Shown piece by piece: positions 1 to 27,899 of a DNA stretch of 27,899 nucleotides (its first letter is position 1; every line of letters starts with the position of its first letter). Under the pieces are notes generated by a model. That model was given only the letters and a program-made list of their open reading frames with translations. It was not told where the DNA came from and searched no databases. Origin of the DNA: a virus; IMG/VR virus record IMGVR_UViG_3300023184_000012, positions 1-27,899 of that record; one strand, written 5' to 3'. The translations under genes were made by a program, and so were the position numbers.

Positions 1-103
1 ATAATACCCTGTAGGATATCCTTGTTTCTTTGTGCTGCCTCTATTTGTTTCTTTTCAGTTACTTCTAGATTTATTATATTAGCCTTAGAAGCTTTAATAA
101 CAG
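1..103. repeat. Terminal redundancy, left copy
   Basis: These 103 bases are identical to the last 103 of the window (27797-27899). Both copies lie inside the tape-measure gene, and joining them keeps that frame open. The simplest reading is an assembly overlap from a circular or circularly permuted genome of 27,796 bp. A true packaged direct terminal repeat would be an unusual find in the middle of a long coding frame. Confidence 0.95.
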
Positions 104-785
104 CATCGTATTGATCTAATTTAAGCTTATAAATCTCCTCCTCGGACATACCTTGGAGTCTTAGAATATTCTCTTGTGCACTTATAGCAGACAATTGCTT
201 TTCTTGCATAGCAAGATTGGCAGCAGAATCAGCATTAAGTTTCTTTTGTTCTTCATCAACTCCAGTTACTGCAGCTTTAATATCGTCCCAGTATGCGTAG
301 ATAGCACCAAGAGCAATTACAAGTAATCCAATACCAGTAGATCCAATAGCAGCTTTAATACCTTGAAATGCAGTAACAGCTACTTTCTTAAGGTTAGTGA
401 AAGCATCTCCCATATCTGCTAAGGCAGTTAACCCTTGGGTTAAAGCCATAGCCCCTTGTACCTTTTGGAAAGTCTTTTCGAAATCTTTAGCGTCTCCACC
501 AGCTAAACTAATAGCACCTTGAATAGCTGTGAATCCTCCAGCTACAGCTGCTAAAGATTTAGTAACTGCCTGAAATTTACCTTGGGTTGTAAAAGCATTT
601 GCAGTATCATTGGCATCTGCTAATGTTTCTTTTAACTGCCCTACCTTTGCTGCAGCAGCATTAATAGCTTCTGGTGTTGCGTTAACACTAGCTAATAATT
701 TCTGATACTCTACCTGAGCTTCTTTGATTTGAGATTTTAAACTCTGAAACCCGGTTACTTCAATGTCTATATTTTCGTCTGCCAT
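1..785 (-). CDS. Tape measure protein, N-terminal part (gene continues at 27796)
   Basis: This is the first 261 codons plus two bases of a gene that continues across the circular join to 25765; the joined protein has 938 residues. Tape-measure proteins run through the tail tube and set tail length. The part here starts MADENIDIEVTGF, goes through a helical, Ala/Gln/Lys-rich stretch, and reaches a hydrophobic segment at about residues 150-165 (IGLLVIALGAIYAYWDDI), a pattern typical of tape measures. The start at 785 is 30 bases after the preceding tail gene ends, behind an A-rich leader. I translated the region by hand and found no stop. At the family rule of about 0.15 nm per residue the tail would be roughly 140 nm long (inference). 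Confidence 0.93.
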   Translation of the reverse strand, partial: MADENIDIEVTGFQSLKSQIKEAQVEYQKLLASVNATPEAINAAAAKVGQLKETLADANDTANAFTTQGKFQAVTKSLAAVAGGFTAIQGAISLAGGDAKDFEKTFQKVQGAMALTQGLTALADMGDAFTNLKKVAVTAFQGIKAAIGSTGIGLLVIALGAIYAYWDDIKAAVTGVDEEQKKLNADSAANLAMQEKQLSAISAQENILRLQGMSEEEIYKLKLDQYDAVIKASKANIINLEVTEKKQIEAAQRNKDILQGI

Positions 786-3800: not shown

Positions 3801-4271
3801 ATTCCAGGATAACTTAATGTTATCGTACGTAAAGTTGTGACCAAGATCATTTAGGTTTATCTCACTCATGTTCTTTGGAGCAACTATAGAAGCAAATGTA
3901 GAAGTCTCGCCCATGAATACAATCTCGTATTCCACTTTAGATCTTTCCCCGTTAGTGTAGATAGCAGTTAACCTAATGTTACCTCCAACGAAGTAAGCGT
4001 TATTAATATTTATGTAGGCATCAGCTTTCTGGGTTGCATCAAAATCAGTGCTGTTAACATTAAACACAGCTTTGAAGTACTGACCGTTACCGCTATTAGC
4101 AGGCACACGAAATGTTCTAGTAAAATTAGAAGTTGTTGCTGTGGGTTCTTCTATCGACTGTATGGATTTGTTGAACTTAATTGGTTCATCATCATACATA
4201 TCGATTTCTCGATAAGATGAATATCCAGTAGTTCCATCCTGTATCTGTGCGTATAGCGATATAGCGTCCAT
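816..4271 (-). CDS. Large tail/baseplate structural protein with Cys-rich repeats
   Basis: An 1151-residue protein encoded between the 475-aa tail protein and the tape measure. Its N-terminus (EIDMYDDEPIKFNKSI and SNFTRTFRVPA) resembles a class of tail or baseplate proteins I know from Bacteroidota phages; no enzymatic motif is visible. Most of the chain is Ser/Thr/Asn/Gly/Tyr-rich beta-type sequence. At about residues 765-930 it carries two related repeats, each bounded by cysteine clusters (CDAYCCRG, GCACV, CTACCCTSYS, GCNCG) and sharing a pattern of YGN/YGD, a short loop, a WYYDG or RYYKN turn and a GV/GI-I segment ending in GC. The C-terminal 220 residues are again beta-rich. Its start codon shares a base with the upstream stop (TAATG), implying translational coupling. 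It is probably a baseplate hub or distal tail component; the exact role is unproven. Confidence 0.75.
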   Translation of the reverse strand: MDAISLYAQIQDGTTGYSSYREIDMYDDEPIKFNKSIQSIEEPTATTSNFTRTFRVPANSGNGQYFKAVFNVNSTDFDATQKADAYININNAYFVGGNIRLTAIYTNGERSKVEYEIVFMGETSTFASIVAPKNMSEINLNDLGHNFTYDNIKLSWNAGPGSTGGLLNGDVVYPLAEWGYTYGDDNQPQQSTLSVYTGTTGGSMKGFTNSAYPLALSQFKPIVRAKKIWDAIFDDAGYTYESQFLDSMFFKNLYMVSTDVATSNAELVSTPLAIVGIPNSGPNTLPFSQFTKIVASTESVDTTNSYNPVTSTYTVPFTGYYSIKSRLQMTFTPGASPGAYKTFSYAMNKNGVQIVSRTGYLESLGNFTDTRYATSQYPIPGFSPVYEFDFSGNYTQGDTLEFYVYVSLFQFTFLMFQTGSITFTGPEVVIPQGLMPTQYKQIDFIKGINDRFKLMWEPDKENVKNFKIEPWVDWIKQGEQLDWTDKLNEELDVTVKPLFYTQPRRVIFKDSEESDVFNFSFQQQNKQVFGQLNQDSNIELITGDRTITSIFAPVPLAPIAGTGGFLIPHFAKDTETQRQPMQVKPRLVFYNGIQQVPTGLNWYLRNTPGATGASVQQTSYPLISQFNIYPFDQASYDLNWTNNPQFWNPLNNIYPAAGGSGATGFAGRTTNTTYVKYWEAWFDSTYSPYSRIMEATFALDSTDVYNINFNDIVMVKDSWWTVTKISDYVLGTKQNVKVQLVRLGNIGVSIGATGPTTITGTVLTEFTNVCFGLTQCDAYCCRGINKFTVYGNNKRMYDSQFIYGNPSGSIPAPAGWYYDGNYTMQVNEFGVLIAIGTGSGCACVPTLYAISVCGSDTFCTACCCTSYSQTIYGDKPTLAACTVLYGNNTGTTTLIPNRYYKNASAQCRVGANGITITSFGDCSGCNCGYNPNGGVYSRSASVNSGTGGTGPVTYGTAASACSNTGGQSYETFYTSDPAFLDSNTFYYDVNSDVAIGNLGQVGVTGFVSDGKVVKYYVGATASGPTLDCADLTPIDRTNTVTFRAINRTGSNLTAYFTYYTCPDPSTYLYLDQAGYAGSSWDVTHTIDYNATNFIAVDLTVETSVNLIYQYFQEGVIVDYQELIAKPGSPILFQGQTPVESYSTEVYFTFVG

Positions 4272-5698
4272 TAATAGTTTTGTTTAGGTTGTGTCTTAGT
4301 AATCTTACAAACGAATGTGCCTTGAACCATCTTAACTTGTTTAACATTTTTATAAGTGTAATCTGCTTTCTCGACGATAACTGTGTACGGGTTAACCTCA
4401 TCACCTATGTAAGCCCATACCGAAGGTGACTCAGGAATAGCTCCTAAGAAATCTACGTACTCTTGGGTTAACCAATCTGACTGAATAGTGAATGTTCTAG
4501 TAACCACTTTGTTAAATGACTTAGCTCCACCTCTCATCCAGTTCGGCGAGGTGTTAGCAGAAGGATCAGTCACAACAGGTTCTGAAGAATTCCAATTAAG
4601 TGGATTCTGACTATAAGTTTGCTCAGTAGAATTAGATGTTAGTTCATAGAACATATTAAAGTTATAGTAGTCCCTGCCACCTAGATCGTTAAGCCAACTT
4701 AACCTAACTACCGGATAAAGGGTTTGACAATCAGTATCAATGGTAAAGGTTACTAACTCAGAGGCTATTGTCTGTGGTGTAGTAGAAGCAGTTGAGGTAG
4801 TCTTTGTATAAGCTTGTATTGTGTAATAAGTGATATTAGGATTAGTGATAGCTAAATCTTTAGGTCCACATCTGAAAGTTAGCATAGCATAATAATAATT
4901 ATTCCATTGAGCTCCTGTGTAGGTTGGAGTTGACATAGGTCCACCGCCATTTTGAATTAAGTTCTGATAAGTTGTAGTTTGTATTAAACCTCCAGTAGCT
5001 CCATAGGCATTATAAACCATACACTGAACTGGTCTGCCCCAAGTTCCTGGTGTGAATCTATAGTTCCAGTTTATAAATGAAAGCGTGTGATGATCTCCAG
5101 ATCCCACTGTGATGTCGTTGCTATCTCTCTTAAGAAACTTACCACCAGGTAATGGTAAAGAAGCTGTACCAGTCGCACCCATCATATAAGATTGATAGAA
5201 GCCATAGGTGGTTTCATCAGCCATTGAAGCAACTGCTTCTTCCCAAGGTAGTGCACCAGGCAAAACAGATACTGGAAACCCAGTCTGTTCTAGACTTCCC
5301 ATAAAATAAGCTGGTGCTCCAGTACTTCCCAGACCATTAAAGGTTGTGAGAGAGGATCCGGTTCCACCAATATACTCTTCACCCACCTTTATAAATACCG
5401 CAGGTGCTATATCAGAGGAATCCCTAAAGTTCTTATTCCAACCTTGTTCAACCGAATAGTTTGTTAACTGTATGAATGGTTGCACGATCGAACTCACATC
5501 CACCATACCATACCCTGCCTGATTAGGTCGCTGCTTAAGCGTATACGTTGGCGTAGTAGATCCTGTAGCAGCATTAACATAGATGTCAACTACATAAGAG
5601 AAGTCTATGTTACCATTCTGATTGGATAGAAAACTCCAGACAACAGGATTATATCCTGGTGAGTATACGTGTGGTTTAAATGTAATATTAGTTATCAT
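4271..5698 (-). CDS. Tail structural protein (distal-tail or baseplate type)
   Basis: A 475-residue protein rich in Tyr, Thr, Asn and Ser, with no catalytic motif. The opening (FKPHVYSPGYNPVVWSFLS, then VVDIYVNAA and MVDVSSIVQPF) matches a pattern I associate with tail proteins encoded just after the tail chaperone in Bacteroidota phages. Its ATG at 5698 overlaps the TGA of the frameshifted chaperone frame (ATGA, 5698-5695), and its own TAA shares a base with the next start, so the three genes are translationally coupled. Position before the 1151-aa tail protein and the tape measure suggests a baseplate or distal-tail component. No more precise function can be read from the sequence. Confidence 0.7.
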   Translation of the reverse strand: MITNITFKPHVYSPGYNPVVWSFLSNQNGNIDFSYVVDIYVNAATGSTTPTYTLKQRPNQAGYGMVDVSSIVQPFIQLTNYSVEQGWNKNFRDSSDIAPAVFIKVGEEYIGGTGSSLTTFNGLGSTGAPAYFMGSLEQTGFPVSVLPGALPWEEAVASMADETTYGFYQSYMMGATGTASLPLPGGKFLKRDSNDITVGSGDHHTLSFINWNYRFTPGTWGRPVQCMVYNAYGATGGLIQTTTYQNLIQNGGGPMSTPTYTGAQWNNYYYAMLTFRCGPKDLAITNPNITYYTIQAYTKTTSTASTTPQTIASELVTFTIDTDCQTLYPVVRLSWLNDLGGRDYYNFNMFYELTSNSTEQTYSQNPLNWNSSEPVVTDPSANTSPNWMRGGAKSFNKVVTRTFTIQSDWLTQEYVDFLGAIPESPSVWAYIGDEVNPYTVIVEKADYTYKNVKQVKMVQGTFVCKITKTQPKQNY

Positions 5699-6494
5699 CT
5701 TCTGATTGATTTTTCTTTTTGAATGGCCAAAGCTTCTTTAGTAGCTTCGTCTTTTTTCCAGGTAAGCCAGTTAAATGCGGCGCGGACTTGTAAAGTCGTA
5801 GTCTCTGCAAATCGAAGAGGATCTTCTCCAGCCAAACGATTGATGAGTTCCCACCAAGATCTACCTGGGCTAAGCTTTTTAGCGTCTCCTGGTCTGCCTC
5901 CGGAAGCTGCTTCACTTCTGGTATCTCTAGCAAAGAGTCCAGGGTACTCTTTAAAGATGAGTTTGCGTATTGCAAAAAAAAAGAGTTAGCTGATTTTACT
6001 GCTGACACTGGTAGATCTAGGAATAGTTCTTTTCTGTATTTAAACCCATTAGTGTCATAGTCTTCTAAGACCAGCACATTACCCTTCTGGGATTTAATAG
6101 GTCTGTACACAATCGCTGCTATGTCTTCTAGTCTTCTCTCTGCATTCTTATCTCCAACAATAAGATCTAAGTCAGCAAATTCTCCTAACGTCATATCGTC
6201 CACATTAGGTAACCCGTACTTAATCCCTTGAAATTCCACGATCGGATTAATAGATGCCGCGTTGCCAACCAATGATGTGATCTGCATCTGGGCTTCTTCC
6301 CAAACCATAATCCAAGCGCTGTACTTTAGTTTAAACAAGGTTTCAATTGGACAACCAGTTAGGCACTCTACGATTTTGTATTCAGAATCCTTATCCTGAT
6401 TTGCTAACAAGTCTTGTAATTTGTAATAGGTCTTTAACGTGATCTCTTTGAACTCGTATGAATCTTTGCCTATTTTAAATGTTGGTCTACTCAT
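5688..6494 (-). CDS. Tail assembly chaperone, zero-frame form
   Basis: A 268-residue protein in the tail-chaperone position between the gp10-like gene and the large tail genes. Such proteins coat the tape measure during tail assembly and are not usually found in the virion. The first part (FKIGKDSYEFKEITLKTYYKLQ) has the look of phage tail chaperones. After residue 171 the coding strand has nine T in a row (5982-5974). Past that point this frame stays open for about 94 codons and ends in a Lys-rich tail (KKLWPFKKKNQSEDDN), but its third codon positions are about 50% G/C by my count, against about 33% in the overlapping -1 frame. The C-terminal third may therefore be secondary to the frameshift product. 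The start is set by an ATGA overlap with the gene above. Confidence 0.8.
   Translation of the reverse strand: MSRPTFKIGKDSYEFKEITLKTYYKLQDLLANQDKDSEYKIVECLTGCPIETLFKLKYSAWIMVWEEAQMQITSLVGNAASINPIVEFQGIKYGLPNVDDMTLGEFADLDLIVGDKNAERRLEDIAAIVYRPIKSQKGNVLVLEDYDTNGFKYRKELFLDLPVSAVKSANSFFLQYANSSLKSTLDSLLEIPEVKQLPEADQETLKSLAQVDLGGNSSIVWLEKILFDLQRLRLYKSAPHLTGLPGKKTKLLKKLWPFKKKNQSEDDN
5695..6494 (-). CDS. Tail assembly chaperone, predicted -1 frameshift product
   Basis: The ribosome would read from 6494 to the T9 tract (5982-5974), slip back one base, and finish at TGA 5697-5695, giving about 266 residues. The -1 frame has a TAA just upstream of the tract, is open for about 92 codons after it, has no ATG of its own, and ends in ATGA overlap with the next start. 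Its extension looks like a true protein domain, with SWWELINRLAGEDPLRF followed by FNWLTWKKDEATKEAL. Programmed -1 frameshifting is well known in siphovirus tail chaperones (lambda G/GT). What is odd is that the two forms have nearly equal length and differ only in the C-terminal third. An indel error in the T9 tract would be the main alternative explanation. Confidence 0.72.
5974..5982 (-). promoter_or_regulatory. Slippery T9 tract, putative -1 frameshift site
   Basis: On the coding strand the sequence is TCT followed by TTT TTT TTG in the zero frame, so nine T are uninterrupted and satisfy the X XXY YYZ heptamer rule for -1 slippage. The -1 frame stop TAA lies eight bases before the tract, which is where such a window should begin. 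Transcriptional slippage on the same run could give the same result. I did not identify a convincing downstream pseudoknot by eye. Confidence 0.68.
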
Positions 6495-6874
6495 ATTACT
6501 TTTTTTCTAAATTGTGTTCTAATGTATTGGCCAATAGCTTTGGCTACTTGTTTCTTAACTTGCTTCTTAACCGAGTCTTCTAGACTTGTCCAGAATCTAG
6601 GTCTTATTCCTCCTAGCCCTTTGCCCGGGCTAGGATTCCATTGTCCTGTCCTACCTTTACCCCTAACCCTATAAGGTCCGGTACCTTTGTCTACGAACTT
6701 ACCGTAGTACAGGTAGTTGTATCTGAACTGTATGCTGTCTCCTGTGTAACTACCGCTAACCTTAATAGATCTTTGAAGCGCACCAGTTGCTACGGGAGCT
6801 TGTCTCCTTAGATTGGCAGAGATTAGTCTTGCTGCCATATTGATTGCTGAAGTTAGATCTATATCGTTTGCCAT
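6491..6874 (-). CDS. HK97 gp10-like neck / tail completion protein
   Basis: A 127-residue basic protein. The pattern ISANLRRQAPVATGALQRSI near the N-terminus, followed by a YYGKFVDKGTGP segment and a basic C-terminal helix (KKQVKKQVAKAIGQYIRTQF), is that of the HK97 gp10-like family of head-tail connection or tail-completion proteins. It is encoded three bases after the tail-terminator-like gene and its TGA overlaps the chaperone ATG (ATGA). This neighbourhood is the normal one for neck proteins. Family assignment is from pattern recognition only, but is supported by both the sequence and the context. Confidence 0.75.
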   Translation of the reverse strand: MANDIDLTSAINMAARLISANLRRQAPVATGALQRSIKVSGSYTGDSIQFRYNYLYYGKFVDKGTGPYRVRGKGRTGQWNPSPGKGLGGIRPRFWTSLEDSVKKQVKKQVAKAIGQYIRTQFRKKVI

Positions 6875-6876
6875 GC

Positions 6877-7356
6877 TTATTCGAATGCTGCCTCACATAG
6901 ATTGAAAGGTGACTTAAGTTCCACGTTGATCTCTGCTGTCCAACCAGCTAAGTTGTTATTGAATCTCTCCACAAAAGGTACTATGTTAACCGGTGTCTCT
7001 AGGTTAATGTCTACTGTCTCGTAGTCCGTTAACACGATACGACTAAACAGATCCTGCATAATCATTAGCGTGTTGTTGTGGGTGTTAACCTTTAGATCCT
7101 CTTGGTTCTTAGCAATGTCTGCTACGATTAGGCTAAACCCTAATACCATTCTTCCGTTCCTATCCATCAGCGATTGCTGAGGCACTAAGAATACTAAGGG
7201 ATACTTAACCGGGGTCTTTGTGTTGGTCTGAACGTCTATATCTGAAAGTTCGCCTACAGCAAACTGTTCGATCCCTGTGTGGGATGCACATAGTGATTCA
7301 AAGTACTCGATGAACTCTTTGTAGGTTTTAATTGGTCCTGAATTTGCTAGCGGCAT
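6877..7356 (-). CDS. Tail terminator / tail completion-like protein
   Basis: A 159-residue protein that sits between the large terminase and the gp10-like gene. It has a mixed alpha/beta pattern: an N-terminal helix with FIEYFESLC, a strand ending VKYPLVFLVPQQS, a strand GFSLIVADI, a helix NTLMIMQDLFSRI and C-terminal strands (WTAEINVELKSPF). This is the layout of phage tail terminator proteins, which cap the tail tube and meet the head. The family is recognised by pattern and gene order, not by any invariant residue. A 56-base gap without another gene separates it from the terminase end; that gap holds one copy of a recurring TTAAATATG motif (7380-7388, plus-strand spelling). Confidence 0.6.
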   Translation of the reverse strand: MPLANSGPIKTYKEFIEYFESLCASHTGIEQFAVGELSDIDVQTNTKTPVKYPLVFLVPQQSLMDRNGRMVLGFSLIVADIAKNQEDLKVNTHNNTLMIMQDLFSRIVLTDYETVDINLETPVNIVPFVERFNNNLAGWTAEINVELKSPFNLCEAAFE

Positions 7357-7412: not shown

Positions 7413-8705
7413 TTAGTTATAAATGTTCTCTGGTCCACTAACCCCACCTACCCTACTTGTAGCCCCAGAGTAAACTGTGTAGGAGCCTTTTGACTTACCT
7501 TGGGTTAACGCCCGGTTAGCAAAGGCTAAACTTAGGACAATATCATCACTTGCTCCCGAAGGTGCAGAGTAAGAGATTAACCCCGAGGGCAACATCTTGT
7601 AAGCGAAGATGCCAAGCTCCATATGCATCACGCTCAGCACGTCCTTCTTAGGGATCCGTATAAGCTTGTCACCGAACGATAACTTCAGACTCTCTATGAT
7701 ATCCTTCTTACTAGCATTGGTTGTTGTAAACGCTTCTATTAGATTCGGACAGGCTTTGGCTAACTGCTCGGCCACCACAGATCCGATAGAGTTCTTCTCG
7801 ACAACCGTGTAACATCTCCAGTGGTTTATCCTATCGGTTACCTCGCCAATGATCTCTTCCCAAGATGTCTTATTCTTACGGTAGAAGTCTACGAGATCCC
7901 CATCCTCATTAAAGACGGTTAACACTGTGTAGTCATTAGCCACCGCTAGGTCTAAGCCAGCGTAGTACTTCTTGCCTGCTTCTGGTTTGGTCTGTAGGGA
8001 TTCTAAGGTAGCGCATTGGCCGAACCCAGCAAACACATTACCACCACCTTCTAAGAACACCCCTAGGTATTCCTGTAGGTAACTCTTCTCTGGTAGAGTC
8101 TTGCGGGCTAACTCTAAGGTCTCTAGATCTAAGTAAGGGTTGTCATAACTGGTTATCCGATAGGAAGCCCAGTCTGTGTAGTCTGGGTCTAATCCCCAAT
8201 CGAAGATCTTCTTAAACCAGTTGGTGCCATTAGGAGTACTAATGAATAGCACCTTACGGCATCTAATAAGAGTGGTCGGTCTTAGTATGGTTGTCCAGAC
8301 ATCCTCGGGCACAAATGCTGCTTCATCCATGACCAGCAACCCTGACACGGTGAAACCCCTTAGGTTCTGACCAGACTCCGCACTCATCATACGGATAACC
8401 GACCCACTCTTAAAGGTCATTATTAATTCACTAGCATTACTAGAAGCTATTAGCGGGTTGTTAGGACCGGCTGACTTAGCCAGGTCCATAAAAGATTTCT
8501 TTGACTGACTAAACACTGGGCTGACCAGAACGTTATAGCTATCAGGAACGTTGATTGCATAGTACAGTAGAAGGTTAAGGGAGATGAGAGTCTTACCAGA
8601 TTGTCTACTAGATACAAGTGTGTGGTGGGTTGCCTCAGAACCTAAGACTCCATTGATCACCTCGAGTTGTTTAGGGTACGGTATAAAGTTACTTTTAACC
8701 TCCAT
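7413..8705 (-). CDS. terL: Terminase large subunit
   Basis: The 430-residue motor and nuclease that pumps DNA into the prohead and cuts the concatemer. Motifs are clear: Walker A SSRQSGKT at residues 32-39, Walker B LLVMDEA at 123-129, coupling motif FISTPNG at 154-160, and the RNase H-like nuclease acidic residues D252 (AGLDLA), E303 (VVEKNS) and D387/D388 (GASDDIVLSLAFA). Length is normal for the family. It follows the small terminase with one small gene between, and the 9-base gap to that gene suggests cotranscription. The protein appears intact, with no missing catalytic residue. Confidence 0.97.
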   Translation of the reverse strand: MEVKSNFIPYPKQLEVINGVLGSEATHHTLVSSRQSGKTLISLNLLLYYAINVPDSYNVLVSPVFSQSKKSFMDLAKSAGPNNPLIASSNASELIMTFKSGSVIRMMSAESGQNLRGFTVSGLLVMDEAAFVPEDVWTTILRPTTLIRCRKVLFISTPNGTNWFKKIFDWGLDPDYTDWASYRITSYDNPYLDLETLELARKTLPEKSYLQEYLGVFLEGGGNVFAGFGQCATLESLQTKPEAGKKYYAGLDLAVANDYTVLTVFNEDGDLVDFYRKNKTSWEEIIGEVTDRINHWRCYTVVEKNSIGSVVAEQLAKACPNLIEAFTTTNASKKDIIESLKLSFGDKLIRIPKKDVLSVMHMELGIFAYKMLPSGLISYSAPSGASDDIVLSLAFANRALTQGKSKGSYTVYSGATSRVGGVSGPENIYN

Positions 8706-17389: not shown

Positions 17390-17466
17390 GGTTTATGAAA
17401 AATTTAAGTTTGCGTTTCCGTAGTATGATGTTGGTCCGTAAACAAAGCTTACGAAATCTACTGCTC
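17375..17466. repeat. Duplicated cassette, upstream copy (fibre end)
   Basis: These 92 bases hold the end of the fibre gene, its stop, and the start of the 256-aa gene. They match 16466-16557 with nine differences. This is the copy in its full functional context. Confidence 0.9.
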
Positions 17467-20400
17467 CAACTGCTGTAGATAAGGTTGGTGCGGTTCCTGC
17501 TGGCCATTTAACATCTGAGCCCCAGGCAACTGTGTAACCCCCTGTTCCTCCCTGAGTTAATTGAAGCGTATAAACTCCACCGTCTACTGGATTTGATTTA
17601 GTTAATGTAGTTATTGAAGATGTTAAAGTGAGTCTTTGTATATTAGAATTATTCCAATTTAAAGTTACTGTGCCTCCTGTTGATCCTAGTGAATAAGCGT
17701 GTGATGCTGCTTGACCAGTAACTCCAAGTACGTTTCCATGGAATGTTAAATTAGCAGAAGCTTCTATTCCGGTTGCAGTACCATCAGATAATACTAATCT
17801 ATCTGCTCCATAACTACCAACTGTGTAAGCTCCTGTAGGCCCAGTAGCTCCTGTAGGTCCTTGTGATGCTAAAGCGGAAAGACCGTCATAGCCACTTCCA
17901 TTATAGATTAAAGATATAAAGTCTACTCCTGAAACTGCTGTTTGTAAGGTAGGCGCTATTCCACCTATCCAAGATATTGATCCTGGCCAAGTTATGGTAT
18001 AACCACCAGCTCCTCCTTGTACTACTTTTATAGTGTAGACTGCTCCCGAAACTGGATTGCTTAATGTTACTGTTGTGCTTGCTGTTAATGTTAATGACTG
18101 TATGTTAGAGTTATTAAAATTAATTACTGTTGTATCTCCTGTTGATCCGATAGGGTACATATAAGTTGCTGCTTGACCAGTAACACCTAATACAGTACCG
18201 TCAAAGGTTAAATTAGATTCTCCAACTAATCCAGTAGCCGTACCATCTGATGTTACTAATCTATTATTTCCATAAGATGTAATAGTAGATCCACCAGATC
18301 CCGTAGGCCCAATAGGTCCAATAGCACCGCTTGTTCCTGAAGTACCGCTTGTTCCATTAGCTCCAGTAGCTCCCTGTGCCCCTGTAGTTGCTATCGCAGA
18401 AAGCCCATTATAATTAGTTCCATCGTAAATAAATGAAATAAAATCTATTGCTCCTGGTGCAGTTTGTAATGTTGGTGCTGAACCAATCCATGCTACTGAT
18501 CCTGGCCAGGTAATGACAAAACTACCAGCTCCACCCTGTACTATCTTAAGATTATAAACCCCCCCTGCTACACCATTTGTAAATGTAAGAGTTGTGTTTG
18601 CATTTAAAGTTAAAGCTTGTACGTTAGAATCATTCCAATTAATTGTATCTGTTGCGGAAACCCCGCCGTTATCATAATATCTAGAAACTGCTTGACCAGT
18701 AATGCCAAGATAAAATCCATCATAATATAGATTAGATTGTGCAACCACGCCATCTGCTGTACCGTCTGATGTTATTAATCTATTAGCTCCTGGACTAGTA
18801 ACTGATAGGGAAGCTCCAGTAGCACCAGTTTTTCCTGAAGTACCACTAGTTCCTGAACTACCGGATGGTGTAGATACTAAAATTAGTAATACATTATTTG
18901 TATTTCCAAAAGAGTGCGTAGAAGTATTTAAGGTTACTCCATAAGTCCAATATGTTGTGTTATCGGTCTTACTTGTAATTGCCCAAGTTTGATAATTAGT
19001 ATGGTTTGCTTTATCCTGAATTGTTATAACGCTTCCAATTGCAAGATTACTTAGGAAAAGATCGATGTTAATATTACCTGTTTCTAATTCAGAAATGCTA
19101 ATTGATGTAGCAGATGCCTGTGTAACATTATTCCAGATAATATTACCGTTTCCTGGATCTCCTGATTGAGTATTTGTTCTTGACTGATAATTAAATAACG
19201 AGTTTGAAGCTCCGTTAACTCCCGAGGTTCCGCTGGTTCCTGAAGTACCGCTGGTTCCTGAAGTTCCTGAACTACCTGAAGAGCCATTAATTCCGCTAGT
19301 TCCTGCACTACCGTTTGCTGGTAAATCACCAGTTTGCATTGCGATCCAGTTAAAGTCTGGTAAAGTTCCACCTAAAGGAACTGATGTTCTTACAACAAAT
19401 TCAGATGCAGATTGACTATAAATACCAACAACTTCATCCCTATCGGTTGCCCATTGAAGAGAAGTTGCAAGTGTATAATTTGCATTAGGAAAATCTGTGT
19501 ATCCATAAGATGCAAATGTTATTGTTGCCTGATATTGTCCTGCTGGACCTGTAGCACCCCAATTTGGATTAGCATAACCAGATTTCATAAGTGGACCGTT
19601 ACCACCGTTACCTGTGGCTCCTGTAGCTCCGTTAATTCCACTAGTTCCTGAAGATCCATTAATACCTGAAGTACCGCTTGTTCCTGAAGTGCCACTAGTT
19701 CCTGAAGTGCCACTAGTTCCTGAAGTGCCACTAGTTCCTGAAGTGCCACTAGTTCCTGAGGTTCCATCTATACCTGAGGTACCACTAGTTCCTGAAGTTC
19801 CACTAGTTCCTGATGTTCCACTAGTTCCTGAAGTGCCGCTGGTTCCTGAAGTTCCGTTAACACCAGAACTACCAGAACTACCACTAGATCCTGAACTACC
19901 TGAAGACCCATCTTGACCGGGTAAACTAGTTTCTCCAAGTGCTATTGCTTGAACATACCATTCAGTAAACGCTCCATTAGGATCAAGACTATTACCAAGA
20001 ACTAAATCAAATCCTGAATTAGTTTTATTCTCTAAGGTGATTTGTGGGGTAGCAGTTAAATCGAACCATTTACCCGATGATTGTTGTTTATATTGAACGT
20101 CAATAGAATAGTTAACCGTGTTAAACGGAATGCTAAATGTAACAGGAAGTTCGTAGTTAAAAGTTACTGAATTATAAACAAAATCCGTATCTAAATAATA
20201 AAGGTTCTTAGTAGTTAATCCAAGTCCAGCAGGTCCGGTAACACCGTTAATTCCTGAAGTTCCTGAAGATCCATTAGATCCTGAAGTTCCACTGGTTCCT
20301 GAAGTACCTGAGGTTCCACTAGTGCCTGAAGTACCGCTAGTTCCACTAGTGCCTGATGTACCGTCTATACCTGAAGTTCCACTAGTTCCTGATGTACCGC

Positions 20401-21220
20401 TAGTTCCTGAGGTTCCACTAGTACCTGATGTACCGCTGATTCCTGAGGTCCCTGAAGTACCTGATGTACCTGAAGTACCAGATGTTCCACTTGTTCCTGA
20501 AGATCCATTAGTTCCTGTAGCACCTTGTTGAACATAAAATACTGGTAACACAGAAACTGAAATCGAACTAGTTGCTGGTTTATTTGGCAGCGTTCCTGCT
20601 GGTTGGAACAGAGCTTGCATTGTTGTGTCAGTCGAACTCCAATAGACCTCGTAGTAATCCCCAGTATTTGCTGCAACCTGATAAGTTAGCGTAACTGCTT
20701 GAATTGCTCCAGCACCATTTAAAGTTGTTAGCTTATTAGATCCAACCACATTAACTCCGTTTTTGCTTAACCAAACTTGAACAACGTCATCGCCTGGTGA
20801 AGTTTTATAGAATTGTATGTTAGCTTGTAGATTGAATGTAAGGCTCGCTGCTACGTTTATTTTAGAATTATCAGTAATACTAACACCGTATGAATTAACT
20901 GTCGTATTAAGTCTAAAAGCATTAGCAGCGGACGGACTAGCATTAGTCTGTGTGGTAGTATCTAAAAAAATACCGTAGAAACCTTGAGCTCCACCAGGTC
21001 CAGTAGGACCAGTAGCACCACCTCCAGTAAGTCCTGCAATTCCAGTAACGTTACCGGTAAAATTTACAGTGGTATCAGATACCTGAAAAGGCATCGGATT
21101 ACCGAAACCATCTGTGACAGTTTGTAAAGTATCTCCGGCAACGCCAGAAAGCCCTTGTGAACCTACATTAAGGATTCCACCATAAGTGTTTTGTATTCTT
21201 TTACCGGTTAAATCAGCCAT
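17393..21220 (-). CDS. Repeat-rich tail fibre (GTSGTSG and collagen-like)
   Basis: A 1275-residue fibre protein. The first 230 residues include GGGATGPTGPGGAQGFYG and a beta-type domain. Three long tracts of repeated Gly-Thr-Ser follow, at about residues 232-330, 435-540 and 637-673, with a shorter one at 783-801; small beta domains lie between them. From about residue 810 there are three related domains of some 130 residues, each opening with RLxxSDGTA and a GVTGQA or GITGQA motif and containing APTLQTA or APTLSTA and a VDF-S segment; collagen-like GATGANG and GPTG stretches separate them. It ends ANLNFS. The tracts likely form extended, trimeric shafts and the C-terminal domains the distal part. 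Such GTSG-rich fibres are common in Bacteroidota phages. Length of the tracts may vary between isolates. Confidence 0.85.
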   Translation of the reverse strand: MADLTGKRIQNTYGGILNVGSQGLSGVAGDTLQTVTDGFGNPMPFQVSDTTVNFTGNVTGIAGLTGGGATGPTGPGGAQGFYGIFLDTTTQTNASPSAANAFRLNTTVNSYGVSITDNSKINVAASLTFNLQANIQFYKTSPGDDVVQVWLSKNGVNVVGSNKLTTLNGAGAIQAVTLTYQVAANTGDYYEVYWSSTDTTMQALFQPAGTLPNKPATSSISVSVLPVFYVQQGATGTNGSSGTSGTSGTSGTSGTSGTSGISGTSGTSGTSGTSGTSGTSGTSGIDGTSGTSGTSGTSGTSGTSGTSGTSGTSGSNGSSGTSGINGVTGPAGLGLTTKNLYYLDTDFVYNSVTFNYELPVTFSIPFNTVNYSIDVQYKQQSSGKWFDLTATPQITLENKTNSGFDLVLGNSLDPNGAFTEWYVQAIALGETSLPGQDGSSGSSGSSGSSGSSGVNGTSGTSGTSGTSGTSGTSGTSGTSGTSGIDGTSGTSGTSGTSGTSGTSGTSGTSGTSGTSGTSGINGSSGTSGINGATGATGNGGNGPLMKSGYANPNWGATGPAGQYQATITFASYGYTDFPNANYTLATSLQWATDRDEVVGIYSQSASEFVVRTSVPLGGTLPDFNWIAMQTGDLPANGSAGTSGINGSSGSSGTSGTSGTSGTSGTSGVNGASNSLFNYQSRTNTQSGDPGNGNIIWNNVTQASATSISISELETGNINIDLFLSNLAIGSVITIQDKANHTNYQTWAITSKTDNTTYWTYGVTLNTSTHSFGNTNNVLLILVSTPSGSSGTSGTSGKTGATGASLSVTSPGANRLITSDGTADGVVAQSNLYYDGFYLGITGQAVSRYYDNGGVSATDTINWNDSNVQALTLNANTTLTFTNGVAGGVYNLKIVQGGAGSFVITWPGSVAWIGSAPTLQTAPGAIDFISFIYDGTNYNGLSAIATTGAQGATGANGTSGTSGTSGAIGPIGPTGSGGSTITSYGNNRLVTSDGTATGLVGESNLTFDGTVLGVTGQAATYMYPIGSTGDTTVINFNNSNIQSLTLTASTTVTLSNPVSGAVYTIKVVQGGAGGYTITWPGSISWIGGIAPTLQTAVSGVDFISLIYNGSGYDGLSALASQGPTGATGPTGAYTVGSYGADRLVLSDGTATGIEASANLTFHGNVLGVTGQAASHAYSLGSTGGTVTLNWNNSNIQRLTLTSSITTLTKSNPVDGGVYTLQLTQGGTGGYTVAWGSDVKWPAGTAPTLSTAVGAVDFVSFVYGPTSYYGNANLNFS
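17396..18795 (-). repeat. Three tandem fibre C-terminal domains
   Basis: Three homologous coding blocks at about 18795-18395, 18275-17870 and 17812-17396 encode domains with the same order of motifs: RLxxSDGTA, NL-x-x-GxxLGxTGQA, NxxNxQ-LTL or NxSNxQ-LTL, QGGAG or QGGTG, APTLxTA, then VDF-S-xY. They differ enough to be old duplications rather than recent copies. The last one ends the gene, and its end is the part copied to 16466-16557. Confidence 0.85.
19683..19754 (-). repeat. Perfect 18-bp tandem repeat, four copies
   Basis: Four identical 18-base units follow one another, each encoding GTSGTS on the minus strand. Similar but less regular units continue on both sides and in the tract at about 20230-20525. 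Runs of identical units are prone to slippage and recombination, so copy number here is a likely source of fibre-length change and of assembly error. Confidence 0.93.
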
Positions 21221-24103: not shown

Positions 24104-25747
24104 TTAAAGAGTCTTAACAAGATTAATTAGATCGCTGTACATTTTACGATCTTTCATATAAGCTTCGTACTCGTCCTTATCTAAGAAGTCACCTTGAATG
24201 CTTAACCCTTTTAACTCTCCTGACTTAACCTTAGCCCAAGTCTCTAGGTTAGTTACCCTCATCTTAACACACCAAGCCCCGATAGGAGCATCCAGTCCGT
24301 AAACCGAATTAGCTTTATCCTCAGCAGTTTCTACGATCCAAGATTCAAACACATAAGCTCCAGCATTGGCGGTGTCTACGTGCTGAATGTTTGTATCTGC
24401 TAATCTTTGCTCTCTCATGTATTTCTCTGCGATCTTAGCGATCACTTCTTTACTGAATCTAACAAAGTAAATGTTACCATCTTTATCTTTTCTGGGTATC
24501 TCCATATCTGGCACCATAGCAATAGCAACTATCTCTTTCTTATCCTCATCAGCAAATAGCATCTTAGCAAATCCGTAAGTTCCTACAGTTCTATCCTCAG
24601 CCAATTCCACATTTTTTAAAATGCTGTCTGCTTTACGACCAACATATTTTCCTGAAGCTTCCCATTTACCTTCTACCTCTTCGTAGATCTCGATAATGTA
24701 ACCTGGATCTTCTTCAGTGCCTTGTATTTCGAAATCTACACCAGGTACTTTTTTAGCACCTTTTACAATCTCTGTGATACGTCCTCTAGGATTCTTATCT
24801 GCTGTTTTCCAACTAACTGCATCGCCAACAGATAATTCATCTACGGATGCAAATACTTCTTTATTAGCAATCGCCTTTTCTAGATCTGCATGTGATGCTC
24901 CAGGCATATAGATAAATCCATTATCTGTTGCGTGAGAATGTATCTCTCCTTTAAGTCCTAATTCATTAGATCTTTGTACTGCTTCCTCGATGGTTGGATA
25001 TTCTTCTGACGCAAACTGTTCTCCTAATACTGCTTTTCTTTTTAGCGGTCCAGATTGATTTGTGTAAGGAGCAAGTCCACCAGTATTGATTTCGAATTTC
25101 TGTCCGATTCCAAATAAAGAAGCTATGACACTTTGATTATTGTCAATGTGTTTAGAAATCTTAAGTTCTTTTACCTTTTCTACTTTAGCTTTATTACTTC
25201 CAGTTGCAAATATTCTATTTGGGAGAATACCCATTTTATTAGCATATTGGAAAATATCAGATCCTGGTGTTGATCTAGCTGTAATGATATAAAGTTGGTC
25301 ACCGCGTTTCTTATACTCTTCAAACAATTTTTTACCTCTATCAGTAGAAAGTGTATCGTCCCAATCAAAACTTACTTTAGCAAATTTCATTTTGTTATCA
25401 TAGCCACATTCGTGACAGATATAAACATCGTCACCACCATCTGCTATATCCCAAGAATGACCACACTCATCGCAAATTATAACATCGTCAACCAATGCCA
25501 TATTCTGGTAGGTAGAGATACAAATAGCAACTGCTTGATCTTGATCTTTACCCTCGTCGATTAAAGTGGGTACACATCTAGACATGTACTCTGACTCTGA
25601 TTCCCCTGCAGAAGGTTCAACAAACTCTTCAGCTTTAAAGTACATAAAGTTCTTTTCTATAGCTGGTGAATCCACTAGTGCTATGGCATCTACTCCCGAG
25701 CCTTCTAACTCGTCTATGATTTCTAAATCAATTACTCTTTTTTCCAT
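24104..25747 (-). CDS. Multidomain prohead protease (XkdF-type) with zinc ribbon and HAD-like module
   Basis: A 547-residue protein, long for a prohead protease. Modules in order: residues 1-85, N-terminal part with EYMSRCVPTLIDEGKDQDQA; 92-114, zinc ribbon (CDEC and CHEC, Cys 92, 95, 111, 114); 121-210, HAD phosphatase-like module with DWDDT (D128, D130), ITARS (T156), K186/K188 and HIDNN (D202); 250-300, a small phage motif with the YMPGASHADLEKA phrase; 305-380, a Tudor-like SVGDAVSWKTADKN; 385-530, the XkdF-like serine protease with His 456 (NIQHV) and Ser 516 (GLSIQGDF). The protease would cleave scaffold and capsid proteins. All HAD key residues are present, so the extra module may be active. 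Placement after the tape measure, 17 bases away, is unusual. Confidence 0.85.
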   Translation of the reverse strand: MEKRVIDLEIIDELEGSGVDAIALVDSPAIEKNFMYFKAEEFVEPSAGESESEYMSRCVPTLIDEGKDQDQAVAICISTYQNMALVDDVIICDECGHSWDIADGGDDVYICHECGYDNKMKFAKVSFDWDDTLSTDRGKKLFEEYKKRGDQLYIITARSTPGSDIFQYANKMGILPNRIFATGSNKAKVEKVKELKISKHIDNNQSVIASLFGIGQKFEINTGGLAPYTNQSGPLKRKAVLGEQFASEEYPTIEEAVQRSNELGLKGEIHSHATDNGFIYMPGASHADLEKAIANKEVFASVDELSVGDAVSWKTADKNPRGRITEIVKGAKKVPGVDFEIQGTEEDPGYIIEIYEEVEGKWEASGKYVGRKADSILKNVELAEDRTVGTYGFAKMLFADEDKKEIVAIAMVPDMEIPRKDKDGNIYFVRFSKEVIAKIAEKYMREQRLADTNIQHVDTANAGAYVFESWIVETAEDKANSVYGLDAPIGAWCVKMRVTNLETWAKVKSGELKGLSIQGDFLDKDEYEAYMKDRKMYSDLINLVKTL

Positions 25748-25764
25748 GTTATTAAATATGTTTT

Positions 25765-27899
25765 TTATAGTCTTGCTATATCTTCCAGACGTTTATTAGC
25801 CTCTTGTTGGCTAGTCATATCTGAAGCTACCACGTAAGTTTTAATGATAGGTGTTTGTTGGGCTACTGTTTGTTCTCCGGTTACACTTAGATTATTAGGT
25901 GCTCCTGAACCTTTACCCATTCCGTTTATCTTTTCAAGAAGTGGTAGGAATGATTCGGTAGCAGAACGATTAACTACATATTCTCCGCCTTCTAGTTGTC
26001 CAAATGATGTTGGTATTCCACCTTCTGAATGTTTACGCCCGGTAAGCAAACCACCTTCTGCAAACTTAGATCCTGAAGATCCACCTGCTCCACCTGCTCC
26101 TCCTGCTCCTCCTGTTGATTTTTTAGGTGGGGTTCCACTATAAGTTGTTTTAGCAATAGTTGCTAATTGGAAAGCAGTACTTACTGCTACGGCTGCTGCT
26201 GCAATAGCTCCTAAAACTGGACCAACAACTGGTATAGGTGCAAGTGAACTGAATGCCCCGATAGCACCTTGAATACCTCCTATAACTGCTTGTGCATACT
26301 GAACTTTCTTACCGTTCTCGAATCCTTCTTTCTCGCGGTTATAATTATCTAATGCTCTATTGTATTCTATTTCAGCAGTTGACTTTGCATATTCATCCTG
26401 TATTGCTGTCTTTTGTTCTGCAGTAAGATCTGCTTGATTAATATCATTTTGATATTGTTCATCAAGTAAAGTTTGTTCAGCATCGTATTTAGCTTTAGTT
26501 TCTTCTAAACCTTCCTGATTTTTCATTTTCTGATAATCAGCCAAAGCATTTACTGCTGCGGTTGCTGCTTGAAGTCCTCCTGCTATTTGTTCAAAAGCAA
26601 CTTTATTTTTCTCTAACCAACTCTCTGCATAATTTTTTGTATCTTCTTTGTATACTCCATTTAACTTTTCAGCTAAATCTTTTTCTAACTGAAGGGTATC
26701 TAATCCAAGATCTTTTGCAATCTCTATTCTTTTTCTAGCACCATCTATTTCTATCTTAAGTAAATCTTGTGCTAATTTTTCTTGAGCCTGCTTTTTCTGA
26801 TTGTCAGTAGATTCTTGAGCAGATAAAATTTTATTAGCTGCATCATAAGCAGCTTTTACATCTAGATCTTCCTGAGCTTTAAGAGCTACTTCTTTTTCTT
26901 TATATAGAAATTCGTATCGTCTTTTTGTAATATCATCTTCTGCTACTTTTTTATTAGCTTGTATTTTTTTATCTCTCCCGTCATAGTATAATGCTAATTC
27001 CTCTAAATCTGTTAACGCTTTTCCTTCTGCATTATAGGTATATTTAGCATAGGTTTCTCTCCATTTAGCTAACTCTGTTGCACTACTTTTAGTCTTCTCA
27101 TAATTTTCCCTTTCTAATGCTTCTATCTTGTCATACTTTTCCTTTAAATCAGCTTCTTCCTGATAGAACGCTGCTTGCTGGGCTTCCATTGTAGCTTGAT
27201 AAAGTTCTCGATTTTGTTTTGCAGCTTTAGTTTCTATTTCTGCTTTTTTATCTGCAGTCTCTTTAGCTTGTAAAAGAACTAAAGCGTCATACTCTTTTCT
27301 TAAAACAGAAAGGGTTTTCTCTTCTGCTGAGGTTAAATTTTTCTTGTTAGTGTAACCATCTATTAGAATCTGTAGTTCGTTACGTTCTTTCTTCTGCTTG
27401 TTCTCAAGTGTCTTTAAAGCTCTAGCGTCTTCGTTAGAAATCATTAACTCCCCGTACTTGTCTTGGAGATCGCCTATCTTTTCAAGATGTGCTTTCTGTA
27501 ACCCTTCCTCTTTTTCTCTAGCAGTAGCTGCTTTATCCTCTCTAGTTTTCTGTTCAGTATCACGCTTAGCGTCATGCTGTAAGATCATACCAGCTCTTTC
27601 GTTCTCTAACTTAGTTAAACCGGTTTTAGCTTCTTCAATAGCCTTGTCACCTTCTTTCTTAATCTCATCGGGATCAAATACAAGTTTAGCTAATCCGCCA
27701 GAGAATTTCTCTTCTAATCCAAAATCTTGACCTAATGCTTGACCGATTAAATCTACTGTGTAAAGAAGTGCTGTTAAAGGAATAGTTAAGAATCTAATAA
27801 TACCCTGTAGGATATCCTTGTTTCTTTGTGCTGCCTCTATTTGTTTCTTTTCAGTTACTTCTAGATTTATTATATTAGCCTTAGAAGCTTTAATAACAG
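25765..27899 (-). CDS. Tape measure protein, C-terminal part (gene begins at 785)
   Basis: The rest of the 938-residue tape measure; the frame is open through the join, and bases 27797-27899 are the duplicated end. The body is long, helical and coiled-coil-like, rich in Lys, Glu, Ala and Gln (for example KKEGDKAIEEAKTGLTKLEN). A hydrophobic stretch lies at about residues 765-805 of the joined protein (GGIQGAIGAFSSLAPIPVVG, then AIAAAAVAVSTAFQLATIAK). Near 830-850 there is a Gly-rich GGAGGAGGAGG linker, followed by FAEGGLLTGRKHSEGGIPTS and GEYVVNRSATESFLPLLEKI, the common end of tape measures. An apparent internal start at 27588 is only Met 332 of the full protein. The stop at 25765 is 17 bases from the protease start. 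Confidence 0.95.
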   Translation of the reverse strand, partial: VIKASKANIINLEVTEKKQIEAAQRNKDILQGIIRFLTIPLTALLYTVDLIGQALGQDFGLEEKFSGGLAKLVFDPDEIKKEGDKAIEEAKTGLTKLENERAGMILQHDAKRDTEQKTREDKAATAREKEEGLQKAHLEKIGDLQDKYGELMISNEDARALKTLENKQKKERNELQILIDGYTNKKNLTSAEEKTLSVLRKEYDALVLLQAKETADKKAEIETKAAKQNRELYQATMEAQQAAFYQEEADLKEKYDKIEALERENYEKTKSSATELAKWRETYAKYTYNAEGKALTDLEELALYYDGRDKKIQANKKVAEDDITKRRYEFLYKEKEVALKAQEDLDVKAAYDAANKILSAQESTDNQKKQAQEKLAQDLLKIEIDGARKRIEIAKDLGLDTLQLEKDLAEKLNGVYKEDTKNYAESWLEKNKVAFEQIAGGLQAATAAVNALADYQKMKNQEGLEETKAKYDAEQTLLDEQYQNDINQADLTAEQKTAIQDEYAKSTAEIEYNRALDNYNREKEGFENGKKVQYAQAVIGGIQGAIGAFSSLAPIPVVGPVLGAIAAAAVAVSTAFQLATIAKTTYSGTPPKKSTGGAGGAGGAGGSSGSKFAEGGLLTGRKHSEGGIPTSFGQLEGGEYVVNRSATESFLPLLEKINGMGKGSGAPNNLSVTGEQTVAQQTPIIKTYVVASDMTSQQEANKRLEDIARL
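27797..27899. repeat. Terminal redundancy, right copy
   Basis: Identical to bases 1-103. The unique circular sequence is 1-27796; this copy should not be counted twice. Confidence 0.95.

Follow-up and report, generated by a model that had tools for sequence, protein, structure and literature searches.

A conserved T9/T10 tract in a tail-module gene of tailed phages with two alternative C-terminal frames, a probable site of transcriptional slippage

A tail-module gene with two open C-terminal frames

The window analyzed here is an entire IMG/VR record of 27,899 bp. It carries an exact 103-bp terminal repeat (1-103 and 27797-27899), which indicates that the genome is complete and either circular or terminally redundant. 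One minus-strand gene of the tail module contains nine consecutive T's, the sole T or A run of at least nine within the 27.9 kb (Table 1). The -1 frame is open from position 5985 and ends at a TGA (5697-5695) that shares the motif ATGA (5698-5695) with the ATG of the next gene. It contains no ATG, and its only start-like codons are TTG codons located deep inside. Since a TAA precedes the tract and an ATG is lacking beyond it, no separate start is evident for the -1 domain.

A shift at the tract would fuse this domain to the N-terminal part of the zero-frame protein, giving a product of 266 aa compared to 268 aa for the zero-frame form, with about 173 residues in common. Third-position GC content within the overlap was 0.50 for the zero frame and 0.33 for the -1 frame. 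The original prediction had described the tract, the preceding -1 frame stop, the open -1 frame without ATG, and the ATGA overlap, and all of its numbers hold. Our recount likewise reproduced its third-position GC contents (33% and 50%), and the computed lengths agree with its two forms of about 267 residues with different C-terminal thirds. An antisense ORF of 88 codons also lies over the dual-coded overlap (5723-5989, plus strand).

Table 1. Features of the two-ending gene and its neighborhood in the window
Feature	Position	Strand	Remarks
Terminase large subunit	7413..8705	-	phrog_2 (E 1e-42), PF03237
Tail-terminator-like neighbor	6877..7356	-	Resemblance only; phrog_30964, without function; matching neighbors in relatives, by eye
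Upstream neighbor, HK97 gp10-like/neck protein	6491..6874	-	PF04883 (E 1.3e-5), phrog_5 (E 9e-11)
Zero-frame ORF	5688..6494	-	268 aa; G-like form with zero-frame tail; N-terminal part conserved as phrog_32199
-1 frame stop TAA	5986..5988	-	Just upstream of T9 tract
T9 slippage tract (putative)	5974..5982	-	Zero frame TCT TTT TTT TTG; T9/T10 in 219/219 unique relatives
-1 frame open stretch	5695..5985	-	Putative canonical C-terminal domain (FAIRKLIFKEYP...WWELINRLAGEDPLRF...SIRR), joined to N-terminal part by the shift
Dual-coded overlap, two open frames	5698..5973	-	Recoding, codon-position, and identity tests
Next gene downstream, probable structural protein	4271..5698	-	475 aa; ATG overlaps -1 stop; no family match
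Tape measure gene, N-terminal part	1..785, on into 27899-25765 across record ends	-	phrog_24676 (E 3e-11)

Conservation of the tract

Scans of viral contigs, together with one GTDB contig and the GenBank genomes of Nonlabens phages P12024S and P12024L, yielded 219 unique homologous loci. Scan patterns were mostly drawn from outside the tract; in one scan, one of the two patterns spanned it. The relatives reach down to approximately 25% identity and include the cultured Nonlabens phages. At the frame junction, 172 loci carried T9 and 47 carried T10, while T7, T8, and T11 did not occur. That 219 of 219 unique loci share a T9 or T10 run at the corresponding position is more than chance.

The register of the tract relative to the codons varied among relatives. 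The number of T's before and after the two central Phe codons (before,after) was (2,1) in 145 loci, (2,2) in 24, (3,1) in 20, (3,0) in 12, (1,2) in 7, and (1,3) in 2. These numbers compensate one another such that the run always totals 9-10. When right-hand T counts were shuffled among 97 representatives (<80% identity), compensation appeared in none of 200,000 shuffles, although the procedure takes no account of relatedness. The register state changed 15 times on a tree computed with the tract left out, and independent contrasts were always in the compensating direction, with few events (3 for no T after the Phe codons, at most 2 for a single T before them). A phylogeny-aware sign test of compensation cannot reach significance with so few independent events. 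Some of the tract's T's are also kept in place by the amino acids that the two frames require. Across 1.18 Mb of the same loci (L001-L255), 20 T9 and 38 A9/A10 runs lay outside this tract, and other slippage sites might be among them.

Selection on both C-terminal frames

Frame statistics were compiled for the 210 loci in which both stops could be reached. One homologue (L142) was left out, as an apparent indel upstream of its tract breaks the reading frame. The -1 frame was open for 81-95 codons and the +1 frame for 0-8, with the zero frame usually spanning 52-67 codons, against about 81-89 for the -1 frame in most relatives. Within the window clade (the window, L001, L002, L007, L010, L012, and L249) the zero-frame tail reached 79-98 codons, whereas four distant loci (P12024S, P12024L, and two others) had only 25-26. 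The equal length of both forms that had been predicted is thus a property of the window clade and does not extend to the other relatives.

To gauge the openness of the zero frame, the -1 protein was recoded with synonymous codons at family usage. For the window and each of four relatives tested from its clade, 0 of 4000 recodings left the zero frame as open. The corresponding value was 3e-4 for L249 and ranged from 0.001 to 0.024 for members with zero-frame tails of 52-62 codons. In the 25-codon members, the zero frame was no longer than chance.

The distribution of differences between related pairs (12-25% divergence) also distinguished the overlap. Differences fell on -1 codon positions 1:2:3 in a ratio of 0.36:0.21:0.43 within the overlap, compared to 0.22:0.13:0.65 upstream of it and 0.26:0.16:0.58 in the -1-only tail. 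The -1 third-position rate in the overlap was about half of the upstream rate and the pattern moved toward position 1, with near-equal counts at positions 1 and 3 in window-clade pairs. As third positions were slow in the -1-only tail as well, the shift of the pattern is the better sign of dual coding. Zero-frame amino acid identity between the window and L012 was 0.44, against an expectation of 0.27±0.04 were only the -1 frame constrained. Identity exceeded this null in most other pairs tested; it did not in very distant pairs and some pairs involving L118.

The overlap is therefore constrained in both frames beyond what one frame imposes, and natural selection has kept both endings in the window clade. 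Dual coding had been raised as a possibility in the original prediction, and the recoding, codon-position, and identity tests support it in this clade. Within the slip-site family, conservation extends to both frames.

Single-ORF relatives and the older ending

Searching named phages with the window protein by tblastn gave no match, and these phages were reached only via a marine relative (L005). A fold-search match pointed to Flavobacterium phage 6H and, through it, to phages carrying the homologous gene as one ORF. These single-ORF homologues (phrog_25418) occur in Flavobacterium phage FPSV-D15 and Cellulophaga phage Ingeline_1 (Duneviridae), and in Bacteroides phage BT-TP2. A profile of the fused product aligned with them over 217 columns, nearly its whole length and including the -1 domain (E 6e-14), while the -1 domain alone gave a weak match (E 0.0016). 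In comparison, the zero-frame product aligned only to just past the tract. The homologues thus share both an N-terminal part and a C-terminal domain with the fused product, and in FPSV-D15 and Ingeline_1 they belong to the tail module and precede the tape measure gene. Unlike the window gene, they encode one product without a frame change and lack a T9 tract (runs no longer than T6/A8, and no T run longer than T6 around the conserved Phe-Phe).

Because the single-ORF relatives in Duneviridae and phage BT-TP2 carry it in frame, we read the -1 domain as the older, canonical ending. The zero-frame tail was probably overprinted on this domain. Single-frame homologues lacking a slip site, which the original prediction had named as possible evidence against it, occur only at great distance (Duneviridae and others), and the slip-site family itself keeps both frames. 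Phage 6H (L256, 10047-10927) was considered as a further frameshift case and rejected, as the near-identical phages FPSV-D15, 2A, and 23T have a continuous ORF. The apparent frame changes in the 6H record are probably a sequence error.

Mechanism of the frame change

Several explanations would dispense with a frame change or with one of its products. Long T runs are error-prone on some sequencing platforms, and the original prediction had noted that a true run of T8 or T10 would allow a single continuous gene to cover the whole region. However, 219 loci, drawn from a wide range of metagenomes and from the GenBank genomes of two isolated phages, all carry T9 or T10, and long second frames stay open in the relatives. 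We rejected sequencing or assembly error on these grounds and regard its probability as negligible. Internal initiation, which would make the -1 domain as a separate protein, matches the small separate gene (gp39) that GenBank places within the P12024S -1 frame. It is nevertheless highly improbable, since the window's -1 frame has no ATG, only 7 of 210 relatives have one within its first 20 codons, 59 have none, and the fusion matches the single-ORF relatives. The zero-frame tail could also be an untranslated or inert by-product, open by accident, with the -1 fusion alone being of consequence. The occurrence of the -1 domain in all relatives and in the single-ORF homologues would agree with this, as would the chance-length tails of 25-26 codons in four distant members. 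Yet in the window clade, and mostly in the large group too, the openness, identity, and codon-position pattern of the zero frame go beyond what -1 coding alone would predict, which makes an inert tail improbable.

Either RNA polymerase or the ribosome could change the frame. A run of nine T's or A's conserved in homologues is a mark of purposeful transcriptional slippage (Baranov 2005, PMC1088944), and about nine T's are required for slippage by RNA polymerase (PMC5009743, PMC1088944). A length-conserved run of at least nine is precisely what the relatives share (T9-T10 in 219 of 219). A programmed -1 ribosomal frameshift of the lambda G/GT type would instead act on U_UUU_UUU, the longer run being a by-product of hydrophobic and aromatic codons in two frames. 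The X_XXY_YYZ heptamer this demands is also in place, as an in-frame and workable T_TTT_TTT occurs once in each of the 210 loci analyzed. Moreover, U_UU.U_UU.U and U_UU.U_UU.C are shift-prone in E. coli (PMC4066793), and G/GT frameshifting has been described as ribosomal (Atkins 2016, PMC5009743). Against a ribosomal shift, seven T's would suffice, whereas all 219 loci carry 9-10 in several registers, and the relatives analyzed contained no T_TTT_TTC or mixed heptamers. The usual, though not obligatory, stimulators were also missing: there was no downstream RNA structure at the tract (mean fold z = 0.03, n = 49), and upstream Shine-Dalgarno-like elements were found in 23 of 210 loci compared to 14 of 210 in the control. 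No Rfam motif was found at the site, and an early +1-frame stop, as insurance against slippage, was not above chance. A ribosomal shift is hence less likely.

With runs never shorter than nine T's, no T_TTT_TTC, and neither downstream structure nor Shine-Dalgarno-like element, transcriptional slippage fits better. The tract resembles such a site in its run length and lack of stimulators, rather than the ribosomal heptamer assumed originally. Slippage most likely occurs here and is transcriptional rather than ribosomal, and polymerase slippage is the probable cause of the frame change, although both processes may contribute. Under this model, unslipped mRNA (U9) would encode the 268-aa zero-frame protein. 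Slippage of RNA polymerase on T9 would cause part of the mRNAs to lose one U (or gain two), and these would encode the 266-aa protein with the -1 domain as its ending. The zero-frame tail, probably overprinted on the older -1 domain, is now itself under selection, and the two proteins would probably form a G/GT-like chaperone pair for tail assembly. Taken as a whole, one tail-module gene giving two proteins of this kind by slippage at the tract is the best explanation of the sequence data, and we hold it with slightly less confidence than the slippage itself.

Neighborhood and predicted function

The gene order in the window is terminase, terminator-like gene, gp10-like gene, two-ending gene, two structural genes, and tape measure gene. 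In relatives, the two-ending gene sits between the terminase and terminator-like genes, while in Duneviridae the single-ORF homologue is followed closely by the annotated tape measure gene. In the circular window, the two-ending gene and the tape measure gene are separated by two genes (475 and 1151 aa), and in Ingeline_1 two small genes lie between the homologue and the tape measure gene.

The products of the window gene had no match in Pfam, PHROG matches without function, and no match in a sequence search of solved structures. AlphaFold modeled the N-terminal part of the zero-frame form well (pLDDT mostly >90) and its last 60 residues poorly, and predicted the -1 domain to be helical. Foldseek returned no confident solved structure; the HK97 tail chaperone 2ob9 ranked third with a weak match (prob 0.21, TMt 0.40). 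A BFVD match to 'tail assembly chaperone' was also weak (E 0.17). Because of its tail-module location and G/GT-like layout, a role as tail assembly chaperone is plausible and somewhat favored. The prediction of a tail chaperone thus relies on layout and neighborhood; Pfam and PHROG assign no function, the fold match to 2ob9 is weak, and the gene does not lie beside the tape measure gene.

Comparison with known systems

Lambda-type G/GT chaperones bind the tape measure and major tail proteins and are absent from the virion. The window gene resembles them in its common N-terminal part, in a -1 shift between overlapping frames that gives access to an alternative C-terminal domain, and in its tail gene region. 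It differs in that the unshifted form ends in a long conserved tail specific to it (79-98 codons), so that the fusion is not the longer form (266 vs 268 aa). Other differences are a T9/T10 tract rather than a stimulated heptamer, the lack of detectable sequence homology, and the existence of single-ORF relatives. Its position in the window is also not that of G/GT, between the major tail protein and tape measure genes and adjacent to the latter.

Known slippage genes (Shigella mxiE/spa13, Thermus dnaX, and bacterial IS elements) likewise have a conserved run of about nine A's or T's and two proteins per gene. In contrast, the gene described here belongs to a phage tail module, both of its frames are long and dual-coded, and its slippage is putative. 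Among the papers searched, and apart from reviews and tools, none linked a tail assembly chaperone to transcriptional slippage, although priority is not certain.

A named counterpart is found in Nonlabens phages P12024S and P12024L (Inhavirus), where gp38 and gp39 belong to the same gene family and have the T9 tract and -1 domain of the window, but a zero-frame tail of only 25 codons. In the P12024S (L165, 3001-3692) and P12024L (L166) records, this one recoded gene is annotated as two unrelated hypothetical proteins, and PHROGs splits the same gene into two families (32199 and 38404). As gene callers split the gene, its true products are missing from databases.

Implications and genome context

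The recoding site at this locus is real and widely conserved, and its ends are dual-coded. Tail chaperone genes are a textbook example of ribosomal frameshifting. We tentatively propose, at a little under an even chance, that a clade of tailed phages, whose known isolates infect Flavobacteriia, uses polymerase slippage on T9/T10, not ribosomal frameshifting, to set the ratio of two tail-assembly proteins, and that a second functional C-terminal domain has been overprinted on the original one in these phages. If true, these phages would offer a natural test of whether RNA polymerase or the ribosome sets the product ratio. Overprinting in DNA phages would likewise gain a clear example, with about 80-98 codons of a second C-terminus atop an existing domain.

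The gene order of the window on the minus strand (7413-27588) is also unusual, with the tail-region genes and tape measure gene placed before the protease, major-capsid-like, and portal genes. An XkdF-like prohead protease is fused to Zn-ribbon-like and Hva1_TUDOR domains (24104-25747), and a 1275-aa protein with six collagen-repeat stretches (17393-21220) is probably a fiber.
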